From: Terricaulis silvestris
Lineage (GTDB): Bacteria > Pseudomonadota > Alphaproteobacteria > Caulobacterales > Aquidulcibacteraceae
Direction of reading: 5' to 3'
Length of the DNA: 64,000 bases
Assembly: GCF_009792355.1 (NCBI RefSeq)
Contig: NZ_CP047045.1
Span: forward strand, 2,506,501-2,570,500
This document shows positions 2,029 through 41,733 of this stretch, piece by piece. The notes beneath the pieces are model-generated. The model was not told the origin of the DNA. It made no database searches and was given only the letters and a program-made list of their open reading frames with translations. The position numbers were made by a program, and so were the translations under genes. Positions within the stretch are counted from its first letter, which is position 1; every line of letters begins with the position of its first letter.

Positions 2029-2150
2029 ACCCTCTCCCTTGCGGAGAGGGTCGCTGCGCCGTGGCGGGGTGAGGGGTGCTCAACCGCCTCGCCGCCAGAT
2101 CAATTGCACGCCCCTCATCCCCTAGCCCCTTCTCCGCAAGGGAGAAGGGG
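2029..2150. repeat. Inverted pair of hairpin repeat units (BIME-like)
   Basis: Two GC-rich hairpins face each other. The left unit has CCCTCTCC/GGAGAGGG around TTGC, followed by a GGGGTGAGGGG tail. The right unit is the reverse arrangement, a CCCCTCATCCCC tail followed by a hairpin of CCCCTTCTCC/GGAGAAGGGG around GCAAG. The same hairpin-plus-tail layout recurs at 14084-14123, 14563-14603 and 39611-39730, so this is a dispersed intergenic element. Its right end supplies the purine-rich ribosome binding region of nadB. Confidence 0.75.
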
Positions 2151-11683: not shown

Positions 11684-11698
11684 TCCGCATCCTCTTTG

Positions 11699-11820
11699 CT
11701 CCCCCGTGCACGGGGGAGCTGTCAGCACGCGAAGCGTGATGACTGAGGGGGCGGTGCGCCCGGCTGACGGACTTTCCCCCTCCGCTCGCTTCGCTCGCAC
11801 CTCCCCCGCAAGCGGGTGAG
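11699..11820. repeat. Palindromic intergenic repeat between glyS and ppdK
   Basis: The gap opens with a perfect 16-bp palindrome (CCCCCGTGCACGGGGG, 11701-11716). It continues with a GTCAGCACGCGAAGCGTGATGAC hairpin region and a GAGGGGG tail, and ends with an opposed unit (CCCCCTC, GCTCGCTTCGCTCGC, CTCCCCCGCAAGCGGG). The layout, two hairpins with G-rich and C-rich tails facing inward, resembles the other repeat pairs in the window, though the core sequence differs. It fills nearly the whole glyS-ppdK gap. Confidence 0.65.
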
Positions 11821-11822
11821 GA

Positions 11823-14072
11823 TTAGCCCTCGATCTTCGAGAAATCCGCCACGGCGGACAGCGCTTCGCGTAACCGAGAGAGCAGCAAAAGTCTATTGCG
11901 GCGCAACATGGCGTCGTCGGCGTTGACGAGGACCTTGTCGAAGAAGGCATCGACCGGCGCGCGAAGCTGGCTGAGCGCCTTCATCGCCGCGGCGAACTCT
12001 TCTTTCTCAACCGCCACGCGCGCGGCGGGGAGCGCCTTTTCCAGCGCATCATAAAGCGCCTGCTCTGCCGGTTCTTTGAGCAACTTGGCGTCGAGACCGG
12101 CGGCGAGATCGGCGTCGCTGAGGCCTTTGCCCTTCTTCTCTTCCGCCGCGAGAATGTTCGCCGCGCGCTTGTAGCCCGCGAGCAAGTTCGCGCCGTCTTC
12201 GGTTTTCAGGAACGCGTCGAGCGCTTCGACGCGCGCGACGATGCGGACGAGATCGTCGTCGACTTCTTTCGTCACGGGATTTGGCGCGAACACCGCGTCG
12301 ACGAGATCGTGGCGCTTGCCTTGCTCGCGCAGCTGAACTTTGAGGCGATCGGCTAGGAAGGCGACCAACGATCCGAACAGCTCGCTGGCGCGCTCACGAT
12401 TCTCCTCCACAAACTTCTTCGCGGCTTCGAGCGACAAATCCCGTGCAGCTCTTTCTCGCAACGCGTCGGCGGCCTCGGCGTCCCCTCCCTGCTGCAACTC
12501 TTCGGCGAGCTTCCTGCGCTCGCGAGCGGCATGAAACTCTGCGAGCGGCATAACTTTGGCAAACGCAGTTGAGAGAACCTCACCAAACTTGGGCCGCACT
12601 CCATTCTCCAGCAGAATGCGAACGACGCCAAGCGCAGCACGTCGAAGGGCGTACGGATCGCTCGATCCCGTAGGCCTTTCATCGATTGCCCAAAAGCCTG
12701 ACAACGTATCCAGTTTGTCCGCCAATGCGAGCGTCACAGCGACTTTGTCGCGCGGCACGCGGTCATTCGGCCCAAGCGGGCGGTAGTGATCCTCGATCGC
12801 GGCGGCGACGCTGTCGTGCGTGCCTTTCGTCAGCACAGAGAGCTGACGCCCCACCTGCCCTTGCAGTTCGGGGAATTCGCCGACGGTCTCCGTCACCAGA
12901 TCCATTTTGCAGAGATAGGCCGCGTCCTGCACCAGCTTCGGATCGGCGCCGGTGACGGCACAGAGTTCCTGCGCCAACGTTTTCACGCGCTCGACCTTGT
13001 CCCACACGCTGCCGAGCTTTTGGTGGAAGACGATCTTCTTCAGCTTGTCGCGGCGCTCATCGGTGAAGAGCGGCGTTGCGGTGTCGACCTTCCAGAAGAA
13101 TTGCGCATCGCTCAAGCGCGCCGAGAGCACGCGCGCGTTGCCGGCGGCGATGGCCTTGCCGCCGTCCTTGGCTTCGACGTTCGCCACCGTGATGAAGTGC
13201 GGCGCTAGACGCCCCGTCTTCGGATCGCGCACGGCGAAATATTTCTGGTGCGTGCGCATCGAGAGCCGGATCACTTCGCCGGGCAGATTGAGGAACGACG
13301 GGTCCATGTCGCCGAGCAGCGTCACCGGCCACTCGACCAGCCCCGCCACTTCTTCCAGCAGGCCGATGTCGTCGACCAGTTCGAGTTTTCTGTCGGCGCA
13401 GAGCTTCTTCGCCTGCTCCAGGATGATGCGCTTGCGCTCTTCGCGCTCGATCAGCACTTTCGCGCCGCGCAGCTTCGACACGTGGCTCGCCGCGTCGCGC
13501 ACTTCGATCGGCTCCGGCGCATGGAAGCGGTGGCCCCACGTCACCAGCTCGCTGCCCACGCCTTCGACCGCGATCTTCACGGGCTTACCATCGAACACGC
13601 AGAGAATGTTGTGCAGCGGGCGCACCCACTGCAGATCGCTAGATTGCGAGCGCATCGATTTCGGCCATGGAAACGCGCGGATGATCTCCGGGATGATCTC
13701 CTGCGCGATGGCGCTGGTCTCGCGCCCAGCGCGTTCGATGCGCGCGACGTAGAAATCGCCTTTCTTGTCGGCGACGATTTGCGCCTGATCGATCGAGCTG
13801 AGGCCGGCGCTCTTCAGGAAGCCCTGCACCGCCTCGTCCGGCGCGCCGACGCGCGGGCCTTTCTTTTCTTCGCTCATGTCCGCTGCCTTAGCCGGCAGAT
13901 CGTCGATCACCGCGCCGATGCGGCGCGGCGACGAGAACGTGTTGATCACCTTCGGCTCGAGGCCGTGGGCTTTGAGCTTTTCGCCCAGCGCGCGCGCCAG
14001 ATCCTCCTCGGCGCGCTTTTGCATGCGCGCCGGAATTTCTTCGCTGAAGAGTTCGATGAGGAGCTGGGGCAT
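11823..14072 (-). CDS. glyS: Glycyl-tRNA synthetase beta subunit
   Basis: The large subunit of the bacterial alpha2-beta2 glycyl-tRNA synthetase, needed with GlyQ to charge tRNA-Gly. The 749-residue product begins with the family signature MPQLLIELFSEEIPARMQKRAEEDL. It contains the conserved GPRVGAPDEAVQGF, RTHQKYFAVRD and ALADKLDTLSGFWAI stretches and ends in the helical anticodon-binding domain (FFDKVLVNADD). It starts 3 bases after the DUF559 gene's stop and shares an operon with glyQ; the nuclease gene separates the two subunit genes. Confidence 0.97.
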   Translation of the reverse strand: MPQLLIELFSEEIPARMQKRAEEDLARALGEKLKAHGLEPKVINTFSSPRRIGAVIDDLPAKAADMSEEKKGPRVGAPDEAVQGFLKSAGLSSIDQAQIVADKKGDFYVARIERAGRETSAIAQEIIPEIIRAFPWPKSMRSQSSDLQWVRPLHNILCVFDGKPVKIAVEGVGSELVTWGHRFHAPEPIEVRDAASHVSKLRGAKVLIEREERKRIILEQAKKLCADRKLELVDDIGLLEEVAGLVEWPVTLLGDMDPSFLNLPGEVIRLSMRTHQKYFAVRDPKTGRLAPHFITVANVEAKDGGKAIAAGNARVLSARLSDAQFFWKVDTATPLFTDERRDKLKKIVFHQKLGSVWDKVERVKTLAQELCAVTGADPKLVQDAAYLCKMDLVTETVGEFPELQGQVGRQLSVLTKGTHDSVAAAIEDHYRPLGPNDRVPRDKVAVTLALADKLDTLSGFWAIDERPTGSSDPYALRRAALGVVRILLENGVRPKFGEVLSTAFAKVMPLAEFHAARERRKLAEELQQGGDAEAADALRERAARDLSLEAAKKFVEENRERASELFGSLVAFLADRLKVQLREQGKRHDLVDAVFAPNPVTKEVDDDLVRIVARVEALDAFLKTEDGANLLAGYKRAANILAAEEKKGKGLSDADLAAGLDAKLLKEPAEQALYDALEKALPAARVAVEKEEFAAAMKALSQLRAPVDAFFDKVLVNADDAMLRRNRLLLLSRLREALSAVADFSKIEG

Positions 14073-14075
14073 GCG

Positions 14076-14630
14076 CTACTCGTCCCCCGCCCCCTCGCGG
14101 GGCGGGGTTAGGGGTGGGGGGCGATCCGACGCGCCGCTGTTCAATGCCTCGCGCACCTGGTTCACGACCCAGGCGGGGCGGTCCCAGACGTCGTTGTTCT
14201 GGAAGCGCAGAACTCTGAAGCCGTTGGCGATCGCGTGAATCGTTTTCGCTTTGTCGTTTTCCTGCACGTCGGCTTGCTCGTGGATCGAGCCGTCAATCTC
14301 GATGAGCAAGCGGGCGGAATACCAGCCGAAGTCGAAGACATAGTCATCGACGGCGACCTCCTTGCGGAAGTGCGCGCCTTCGATGCTGCGAAGGAGATCG
14401 CGCAGCTCCTTTTCGGAGGGCGTCAGTTCCTTGCGCAAGCGTTGCGCGCGAAGATTCGTGCGCGTCCGATCCTTTTGGCGTGTTACTGCGTCTGGGTCTG
14501 GGTCTGGCGACCAGCCATGGCCGAGTTTGCTGTGCTTGGCTTCAGGCAGCTGAGCGTTTGAACGCCCCCCACCCCCTGCCCCCGCCCCGCGAGGGGGCGG
14601 GGGTGCGCTTGTTTCGTCTTGCGGCGTCAT
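14076..14630 (-). CDS. DUF559 endonuclease-like protein inserted between glyQ and glyS
   Basis: A 184-residue protein whose core (about residues 55-165) is a DUF559 domain, related to very-short-patch-repair-like nucleases: [46 protein letters not shown], and [14 protein letters not shown]. The E/D residues of VDDYVFDF and LIEIDGSIH are the likely metal ligands. Residues about 10-23 (Pro/Gly-rich) and 170-183 ([12 protein letters not shown]) are translated from the two inverted repeat units at 14563-14603 and 14084-14123, so both ends are repeat-derived. The ATG at 14630 overlaps the glyQ stop by four bases (ATGA). Substrate and role are unknown. Confidence 0.88.
14084..14123 (+). repeat. Hairpin repeat unit, left copy flanking the DUF559 gene
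   Basis: A CCGCCCC/GGGGCGG hairpin around CTCGC followed by the tail GGTTAGGGGTGGGGGGCG. It is nearly identical, in opposite orientation, to the unit at 14563-14603. It lies within the last codons of the DUF559 gene with its tail pointing into that gene. Confidence 0.8.
14563..14603 (-). repeat. Hairpin repeat unit, right copy flanking the DUF559 gene
   Basis: Read on the minus strand, this unit has the same hairpin (CCGCCCC, CTCGC, GGGGCGG) and a GGGGTGGGGGGCG tail as the unit at 14084-14123, differing by a few bases. It lies in the first codons of the DUF559 gene with its tail pointing inward, so the nuclease domain sits between two inward-facing units. Confidence 0.8.
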
Positions 14631-15502
14631 GTTTGTGACTCCGCCCATTGTTGCGCGCATCCCTTCGCCAGATCGCGCACGCGGGCGATGAAGCTTTGTC
14701 GCTCTGTGGGCGACACGACGCCGCGCGCGTCGAGCAAGTTGAACAGGTGGCTGGCCTTCAGTGTGTAGTCGAACGCCGGGAGCACGGCGCCGGCTTCGAG
14801 CAGGCGCTTTGCCGTGGATTCGGCGTCGTTGAACCAGCGCAGATTCTGCTCGGGCTCGCTGAGCTCGAAATTGAAGCGCGATTGTTGCTTTTCGTTTTCG
14901 AGGAAGACGTCGCGATACTTCACGGGGTACGGCGAGTCTGGATCGTTGAACGGGAGATCGAACACGTTGTCGACGCTGAAGACGTACATCGCCAGGCGCT
15001 CAAGCCCGTAGGTGAGTTCGCCGCTGACTGGGCGCACGTCTAGGCCGCCGACTTGTTGGAAGTAGGTGTACTGGCTCACTTCCATACCATCGCACCAGAC
15101 TTCCCAACCCAAGCCCCAGGCGCCGACGGTCGGGTTTTCCCAATCGTCTTCGACGAAGCGGATGTCGTGCAGCAGCGGATCGATGCCGATGCGCTCGAGC
15201 GAGTTGAGATAGAGCTGCTGCAGGTCCGGCGGGTTCGGCTTCAAGATCACTTGGAACTGGTAATAGTGCTGCAGCCGGTTCGGGTTCTCGCCGTAGCGGC
15301 CATCCTTCGGACGTCGCGACGGTTGAACGTACGCTGCGCGCCACGGTTTGGGGCCGAGCGCCCGGAGCGTGGTGGCGGGGTGCAGCGTGCCGGCGCCGAC
15401 TTGCTCGTCGTACGGCTGCAGGATCGCGCAACCCTGCTCGGCCCAGTAGTTCTGGAGCGTCAGGATCACGTCCTGGAAGCAGCGGGGCGCTTTGTTGGCC
15501 AT
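14627..15502 (-). CDS. glyQ: Glycyl-tRNA synthetase alpha subunit
   Basis: The catalytic subunit forming glycyl-adenylate with GlyS. The 291-residue product shows the class II stretches of the family: [75 protein letters not shown], and [22 protein letters not shown]. The start is placed at the ATG at 15502 ([11 protein letters not shown]), since family members begin close to CFQD; an in-frame TTG lies at 15538. Its stop overlaps the start of the DUF559 gene, placing the nuclease inside the glyQ-glyS operon. Confidence 0.96.
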
Positions 15503-15542
15503 GGGCGGACGCGTAACGGCGCCCGCCCCTTTTCTCAATGGC

Positions 15543-39575: not shown

Positions 39576-39610
39576 GATTCAAACTCCGGCGGAGCAAAGC
39601 AAAGCGACTC

Positions 39611-39730
39611 TCCGCCCCCTTGTGGGGCGGAGTTGGAGGTGGGGGTAACGGCGGTGATGCTTCGAAACGGCTGAGCTGGCGCCCCCATCCGCCGTCCTCC
39701 GGACGACACCTTCCCCACGAGGGGGAAGGA
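39611..39730. repeat. Inverted pair of hairpin repeat units between gcvH and gcvPA
   Basis: The left unit has a CCGCCCC/GGGGCGG hairpin around CTTGT with the tail AGTTGGAGGTGGGGG (39611-39648). The right unit is opposed: CCCCCATCC then CACCTTCCCC/GGGGGAAGG around ACGA (about 39682-39730). The left unit is closely related to those flanking the DUF559 gene. Here the two units are separated by only about 35 bases. Confidence 0.75.
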
Positions 39731-41293: not shown

Positions 41294-41340
41294 TGCTTGT
41301 CCCAGGTACGCGTGGCGCGTGCGAAATGGCACGCTGCCCC

Positions 41341-41504
41341 CGCTGTCCCTGGCGCCTGAGAGATTTACTCCTTCGGCGGCCGCGCGCTCCCTTGAGGCGC
41401 GGCTCTATCCAGCGTGTTCATCCCCCCACGGTCCGGTTCCCTGAGAGTTTCCGGGGCGGTTGCTCCTTCGGGGGCGGCTTTTATTGCGCCGCGCTCTCCC
41501 ACGG
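41341..41504 (-). ncRNA. Tandem glycine riboswitch (gcvT element)
   Basis: On the minus strand, immediately upstream of gcvT, two aptamers follow each other with the conserved core elements. Aptamer 1 has GGAGAG (41494-41499), CCGAAGGAG (41463-41471) and CTCTCAGG (about 41440-41447). Aptamer 2 has CCGAAGGAG (41368-41376) and CTCTCAGG (41355-41362) and ends with CCAGGGACAG. This is the classical glycine-binding tandem riboswitch that switches on glycine cleavage genes when glycine is abundant. Confidence 0.93.
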
Positions 41505-41733
41505 GGTTCGTTTGTCTGGCCGGCCGGTGCGCGACTCGCGTCGGGCGCCGCCGTTAGCCGGAAACTGGTCGCGCGCGCGCATGGAGTCAATTGCGCGGCT
41601 GCCTGTGGATAAGCACTATTTTCGTGCTTCGTTTCACGCATGTCGCCCGAGGCGATTTTTGCGCGTTGCTCACAGGTCAGCGGTGGCGACTTTTTCGCGT
41701 GAGTCAGGGGCGATGTTCTAGGGCCGTTCGAGG
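41505..41733. other. Upstream region of the gcv operon; no gene seen
   Basis: About 230 bases between the riboswitch and the convergent 3' end of the methyltransferase gene. It must hold the gcv promoter on the minus strand. A TTGACT is visible near 41585-41590 (complement) with a GANTC site overlapping it, but no convincing -10 was found. A short AAGCAC/GTGCTT inverted repeat lies at 41611-41629 without a T-run. Confidence 0.4.

Follow-up and report, generated by a model that had tools for sequence, protein, structure and literature searches.

Among the described repeat systems close to the locus reported here is REPIN/RAYT, in which short palindromic units form inverted pairs, occur in many copies, stand beside an enzyme gene with its own repeat type and diversify together with it (PMC3116915). 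A GTAG/CGTC tag at the unit end is a further feature of that system (PMC3733652). RIME, Correia/NEMIS, RPE and MITE-like repeats are likewise short and present in many copies, many of them are palindromic and some are fused in frame, with a mobiliser that is unproven according to passages of PMC2229807 and PMC2573895; the former, a review of 2007, states in the relevant passage that transposase-driven movement of palindromic repeats had been hypothesised with no experimental support. Insertion sequences and MITEs share with our locus the terminal inverted repeats that bound a gene. On the side of the enzyme, a DUF559 gene has been assigned to the EDxHD family (PMC9403480), and the homing endonuclease I-Bth0305I of that family is, together with NGO0050, the best-matching solved fold for the protein studied here. 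Vsr has a similar fold, and Caulobacter VsrA contains a DUF559 domain (a passage of PMC12907096).

In Terricaulis silvestris, a DUF559 gene stands between glyQ and glyS and is bounded by two inverted repeat units. A sequence-only reading of this DNA had likened the arrangement to RAYT/REP systems. The resemblance holds in layout; the protein (PF04480) is not a Y1 transposase, and the host genome has no Y1_Tnp match. That the gene is flanked by repeats was confirmed as real at this locus and as general among DUF559 genes.

The DUF559 gene and its flanking units between glyQ and glyS

The genome is a single contig of 3.86 Mb, and the window, by which we mean the whole stretch of 64,000 nucleotides that was analysed, corresponds to C1:2506501-2570500. 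The features discussed below are collected in Table 1.

Table 1. Features of the window at and around the DUF559 gene (window coordinates)
Feature	Position	Strand	Comment
Gene-less inward pair	2029..2150		As described in the sequence-only reading
Gene-less inward pair directly downstream of glyS	11698..11821		Absent from the sequence-only reading
glyS	11823..14072	-	Start 3 nt past DUF559 stop codon
DUF559 (EDxHD/Vsr-like) putative nuclease gene	14076..14630	-	184 aa; ATGA overlap with glyQ; ORF open from ATG 14660
Unit 3' of DUF559 gene	14084..14121	+	Hairpin 14085-14107 and G-rich tail into gene; about codons 170-183
DUF559 catalytic domain	14142..14459	-	AF2 ten-residue blocks with mean pLDDT 78-98
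Unit 5' of DUF559 gene	14566..14603	-	Hairpin 14579-14603 and G-rich tail into gene; about codons 10-22
glyQ	14630..15505	-	Stop codon 14627-14629 overlaps DUF559 start
Gene-less pair	39610..39730		Tail regex resolved the direction of one unit of two

The two units at the DUF559 gene are inverted arms of 38 nt, 89% complementary and 444 nt apart, with both tails directed inward to the gene, which bears out the description of inverted hairpin-plus-tail units given in the sequence-only reading. The same reading had built the first and last codons of the gene from repeat sequence and had coupled it to its neighbours by four-base overlaps. Because unit DNA covers the codons given in Table 1, the gene ends are largely, not wholly, repeat; and because the DUF559 stop and the glyS start lie 3 nt apart, only the upstream junction, with glyQ, is a four-base overlap. 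The same layout with a short spacer, previously pointed out at two more places in the window, is present at both (2029-2150 and 39610-39730, where the tail regex resolved one unit at the second).

The window ORF matches DUF559 (PF04480) at 6.5e-21. Its protein gave, apart from this match, a weak one to a restriction-enzyme-like model and none to a transposase. PADLOC returned no match for the window protein and a weak mREase_II match for the DUF559 protein of locus L007. A DUF559 protein 77% identical to that of L007 was seen on a contig titled Candidatus Sumerlaeota (L038), possibly a mis-binned contig of a relative.

The AF2 model of the window protein had a mean pLDDT of 79, with most of the domain above 90. 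In structure comparison (TM-score by target length), it matched NGO0050 (3hrl) at 0.87, I-Bth0305I (3r3p) at 0.80-0.82 and Vsr at 0.53-0.55. Sequence profile searches matched 3hrl at 4.5e-34, 3r3p at 1.1e-5 and PvuRts1I at 1.2e-4; Vsr, at 0.07, was not significant. The label of Vsr-like endonuclease given to the protein earlier is apt for the fold, but its closest matches are the EDxHD enzyme I-Bth0305I and NGO0050, ahead of Vsr. Across 46 sequences (194-aa numbering), R76, E83, F98, D110, F111, E121, D123, G124, H127, D136 and R152 are invariant. The residue order E-D-x-H-D is conserved in them as E83, D110, H127 and D136, which we take to be the catalytic site residues.

The host genome carries eight DUF559 genes at eight different sites. 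Using the detector with trimmed domain queries, we found units within 300 bp on both sides of six of them and on one side of the other two (L001 and L002); inspection by eye also showed a degenerate unit on the opposite side of L002. In 20 evenly spaced 20-kb stretches of this genome (400 kb of 3.86 Mb), six pairs were recognised by eye from the detector list, and none of the six encloses a gene, again by eye. Interior sequence in common with the window element was found in two of nine gene-less host pairs, at a level close to the shuffle maximum, which leaves a derivation of the host gene-less pairs from the window element via interior sequence weak. Two neighbouring glycine riboswitch aptamers were also seen in the window (41333-41511, minus strand).

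Repeat units at DUF559 genes of other genomes

The family set comprised 92 distinct DUF559 loci of 169 matches in 60 genomes; these loci were the best-scoring ones or came from multi-copy genomes, and are not a random sample. Of 182 DUF559 places, 7 were left out because their core was identical to another. The domain was placed with trimmed queries, and the repeat-coded ends were thus excluded from it. DUF559 copy number in these 60 genomes of the host family ranges from 0 to 11. The detector found units on both sides of 74 of the 92 loci, on one side of 17 and on neither side of one (L267). The GTDB set consisted of the best 80 loci of one scan, with 73 that were distinct and non-edge (5 of 78 were dropped near a contig end). 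Here units lay on both sides of 31 loci, on the left only of 37, on the right only of 4 and on neither side of one, that is, on at least one side of 72 of 73; the 37 left-only loci came mostly from Mesorhizobium, Rhizobium and other Rhizobiales, and 29 of them had two or more hairpins upstream. In the phylum set, drawn from 299 genomes, the 30 loci with the best scores, no two of them from the same genome, all had units, 17 on both sides and 13 on one. A DUF559 family match was present in 108 of the 299 sampled phylum genomes, a good part of these matches being weak, with E near 1e-4.

Hairpins lay to both sides of 10 of 3709 pseudo-gene controls in the GTDB loci, 2 of 147 in the phylum loci and 31 of 953 in the family loci, the last figure being raised by stretches that hold second DUF559 elements. 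HNH genes, searched more widely (600 bp from the domain), had units on both sides at 0 of 24 loci and on one side at 2 of 24, with 6 of 30 loci left out as too short. When the left flank was compared with the right by BLAST, with no hairpin detector involved, repeats of 25 nt or longer turned up around 73 of the 92 family genes, 52 of them inverted and 21 direct. The corresponding counts were 32 of 73 in the GTDB set, 16 of 30 in the phylum set and 0 of 24 for HNH genes. Terminal inverted repeats are a property of the window locus and of 52 of 92 family loci; a direct repeat was the longer match at 21 of 92, and 19 of 92 had neither. The comparison that had been proposed, of DUF559 genes elsewhere against other genes, showed them to be flanked far more often than HNH genes or pseudo-genes.

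Two layouts recur, unit-gene-unit with inward tails and pair-gene-pair with whole pairs beside the gene; the whole pairs are in some cases near-identical direct repeats, as at L012 (135 nt, 99%). The idea that the gene replaces the spacer of a pair does not hold at many loci, where two whole pairs flank the gene or units stand on one side of it. Tail direction was resolved on both sides of 46 of 74 family loci by the tail regex, which is incomplete, and was inward in 27 of the 46.

The nearest left and right units of a locus were at a distance of 0.13 (edit distance over length), compared with 0.31 between loci of one genome, and this left-right matching was reached by none of 10000 within-genome permutations. 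Between genomes, unit distance was 0.03 where protein distance was below 0.2 (16 pairs) and 0.25-0.28 where it was above 0.5 (0.25 at protein distances of 0.5-0.6), a trend to which orthologous loci add. Within genomes, unit distance followed protein distance with a rho of 0.22, reached by 41 of 2000 permutations.

At the level of whole genomes, unit number (four unit patterns) correlated with DUF559 number, rho being 0.70 over all 60 genomes and 0.69 over the 33 that lack Y1_Tnp, a test not independent of the loci because the unit patterns were picked after the loci were viewed. The initial two patterns had given 0.57, or 0.52 when completeness of 90% or more was required, and in Y1-free genomes a non-significant 0.25 with p 0.16; two more unit types seen at DUF559 loci were added after this first test, and rho rose to 0.70 and 0.69. 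The median number of units per genome was 33 in the 47 genomes with DUF559 and 4 in the 13 without. Reversed control patterns gave 0-1 matches per strand per genome. In G023, the only DUF559 gene is flanked by CCTTCTCC-type units, of which the genome has 89, and Y1_Tnp is absent. In the genomes of genus g8 almost only CCTTCCC matched among the four patterns; the eight DUF559 loci of this genus had CCTTCCC-type hairpins in four cases, another type in three and none in one, so that unit type can be mixed within a host. Y1_Tnp number also tracks unit number in the family genomes (rho 0.47 in 60 genomes, 0.43 among the 47 with DUF559), yet none of ten inspected Y1_Tnp loci, several of them cut by contig ends, had a hairpin within about 600 bp.

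Named loci with units include those of Azospirillum (upstream only), Sinorhizobium meliloti (114-nt inverted repeats), Sphingomonas and Neisseria gonorrhoeae, whose protein agrees with the solved structure 3hrl at 92 of 93 aligned residues. The Rhizobium units are presumably RIME1. All seven matching Azospirillum records cover most of the locus, with no plasmid polymorphism among them, and for S. meliloti, among 60 listed of 161 records, the matches beyond one full record were mostly to neighbouring IS, to repeats, or partial. A phage collection gave no match.

The DUF559 gene of E. coli is ycjD (L346:1278-1990, in the order sapF-ycjD-fabI), and units lie both at the 3' end of the gene and beyond it; most of the locus is found in 3361 of 5426 complete genomes. 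Unit-like matches occur at a median of 16 places per genome; we assume that the ycjD-linked units may be boxC repeats. Units persist where the gene is missing, since they are still seen in E. coli genomes that lack ycjD (12 places in record H136). An inverted repeat with arms of about 18 nt (by eye), unlike the GC-rich units, precedes ycjD at L346:1235-1282, and a related one follows sapF in three E. coli genomes without ycjD. In these three, another gene block follows sapF, and for this reason they offer no clean empty ycjD site and no readable insertion boundary.

Occupied, empty and internally deleted sites

Sister species had been suggested as the place to look for empty glyQ-glyS junctions, and such junctions, free of repeats, were found. 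In 34 genomes, DUF559 lies between the two genes in 11, while the genes are 2-11 nt apart with no unit in 9; G056 and G025 have a gene-less pair at the junction, and in the rest either the gap is longer and free of DUF559 or, in G023, no glyS was found. Downstream of glyS, where the window has a gene-less pair, a tally by eye gave DUF559 or a remnant of it in 10 of 29 genomes, 5 of the 34 (G012, G013, G023, G038 and G055) being left out. The gene-less junction of G025 aligns to the ends of the G035 element, with 125 nt at 76% on the left and 55 nt at 89% on the right, and the middle is missing. From this alignment we read the G025 pair as an internal deletion product of a nuclease-bearing element.

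At the site of L007, 30 loci were examined, each from a different genome of the genus, and both flanking genes could be located in 23 (the other 7 were left out, one flanking gene being missing). DUF559 is present in 2 of the 23 (G000 and G058), and empty states are seen in G040 (2 nt), G042 (14 nt) and G056 (20 nt). The DUF559 elements of G058 (L307) and G000 (L286) at this site are related, lie in opposite orientation and have different unit types; this difference would be explained either by independent insertions or by an inversion with a change of units. No target-site duplication was recognised by eye at glyQ-glyS and at the L007 site, where the relatives are too distant, and no target motif was identified for the element.

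Gene-less pairs also lie in frame inside glyS, without internal stops, in at least eight genomes by our own count. Those noted were G051, G042, G043, G058, G047, G049, G013 and G011, mostly at one position. At L334, an entire unit-DUF559-unit arrangement is in frame within a 709-residue HsdM-like reading frame (HsdM being named by eye). The sequence that follows the DUF559 gene at L318 reads by eye like a cobalamin-synthesis protein. Sequence comparison supports the view that the nuclease gene and its units are one module that behaves as a mobile element.

Interpretation and comparison with known systems

The comparisons show a module with matched ends, its presence and absence at orthologous sites, one copy that appears internally deleted, and co-variation of units and nuclease. 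We consider it probable that unit, DUF559 nuclease gene and unit together make up a small mobile element, autonomous and about 0.5 kb long, and that the gene-less pairs are its MITE/REPIN-like, non-autonomous relatives; that the nuclease drives the movement is what we infer. The ends of such an element would be the two matched inverted hairpin-plus-tail units, and its sole gene would encode a nuclease of EDxHD/Vsr fold. The nuclease would recognise or nick either a target or the units around its gene; the DNA bounded by the units would then be copied, by recombination or by host repair coupled to replication, to another place, either intergenic or in frame within a coding sequence, much as homing endonucleases propagate their own reading frame. 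At least one gene-less pair, found in a sister species, would have arisen by internal deletion of the nuclease gene.

The main competitor to a nuclease-driven element is movement of the units by another enzyme, for example a Y1/RAYT transposase, with the DUF559 gene as a captured passenger. The layout resembles REPIN/RAYT as described in parts of PMC3116915, and the correlation of Y1_Tnp number with unit number across the family genomes speaks in the same direction. The host genome, however, has no Y1_Tnp match, 23 of the 47 DUF559-bearing genomes have none either and still a median of 23 units, the ten Y1_Tnp loci stood apart from hairpins (within the limits set by contig ends), and the pairs in the 400 kb sampled enclose no other gene by eye. 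A RAYT as partner was rejected for the host genome; elsewhere, given the Y1_Tnp/unit correlation, it could be a co-factor. The passenger explanation is weakened by the Y1-free genomes and could still apply where both occur; overall, we hold it to be unlikely. Similarly unlikely in our estimate is a DUF559 protein in the service of the host, as a Vsr-like nuclease that acts on mismatches or cruciforms to police or repair the repeats, its co-location being selected for regulation or function and not for mobility. Its Vsr-like fold would suit such a role, as would Caulobacter VsrA (CCNA_02930), which is SOS-induced and causes an SOS response upon ScmA loss (in a passage of PMC12907096). A host function is harder to reconcile with the patchy copy number of 0-11 per genome, with orthologous sites that are empty, filled or filled in opposite orientation, with units matched per locus, and with the in-frame insertion inside the HsdM-like reading frame.

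Units that are mobile alone and favour sites under little constraint, for instance the margins of DUF559 genes, with the nuclease uninvolved, would account for the one-sided cases and for the pairs inside glyS. They would not be expected to leave the HNH family unflanked (0 of 24 on both sides, 2 of 24 on one), to be matched per locus or to co-vary with the protein, and this account appears highly improbable. A GC-rich genome and short palindromes might invite an explanation by chance or base composition; this is refuted because of the HNH, pseudo-gene and detector-free flank controls, the reversed patterns also count against it, and we give it practically no weight.

Returning to the nuclease-driven element, the chances seem to us about even for a wider reading, in which a widespread group of selfish elements of Pseudomonadota has a Vsr/EDxHD nuclease, framed by palindromic units of its own, that spreads itself and many derived gene-less pairs in a homing-like, transposase-free manner. 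The nuclease would then be the missing partner of several palindromic repeats known for a long time, of RIME-type repeats in Rhizobiales, of ycjD-linked repeats in E. coli and of NGO0050-linked repeats in Neisseria, and the elements would also enter conserved coding genes in frame. The pairing of a putative nuclease gene with matching palindromes recurs in many bacteria, E. coli and Neisseria among them, and points to overlooked selfish mobile DNA whose driver may be a nuclease instead of a classical transposase. Many bacterial palindromic repeats have no proven mobiliser, and the DUF559 nuclease is a candidate enzyme bound to such repeats. As the DUF559 family has a solved member structure (3hrl) and an E. 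coli copy (ycjD), this old question is directly testable in a laboratory strain. The reading further suggests what a large family of uncharacterised proteins may do, and could explain how conserved genes, glyS among them, came to carry repeats in frame.

In comparison with REPIN/RAYT, the inverted, many-copy palindromic pairs were found here and a repeat-associated Y1 (HUH) transposase was not: the enzyme lacks a Y1 domain and belongs to the DUF559/EDxHD nucleases, in a host genome free of Y1_Tnp, and DUF559 genes number 0 to 11 per genome at many sites, whereas RAYTs are single-copy (as stated in part of PMC3116915). Unlike I-Bth0305I, the DUF559 gene is bounded by its own palindromes and occupies many unrelated sites in one genome; Rfam gave no intron match in the 64-kb window. 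The window element differs from Vsr and VsrA in being repeat-bounded and patchily distributed, and no linked cytosine methyltransferase adjoins the window gene, its two neighbours being glyQ and glyS. It differs from insertion sequences in having no known transposase between the window units, and from RIME, Correia/NEMIS and RPE in having a candidate partner enzyme physically joined to the repeats. In the open-access PMC literature, taken as listings and passages, we found no report of a link between DUF559 and repeats, and the main text of PMC12306157, on REPs, contains no words beginning with nuclease, endonuclease or transposase. The parts are known, and their combination, with a putative nuclease function, we rate as new among the open-access PMC literature searched. 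We regard the element as a new kind because REPIN/RAYT differs in the enzyme, IS/MITE in the transposase and homing endonucleases in the setting, and because the combination is unreported in that literature.
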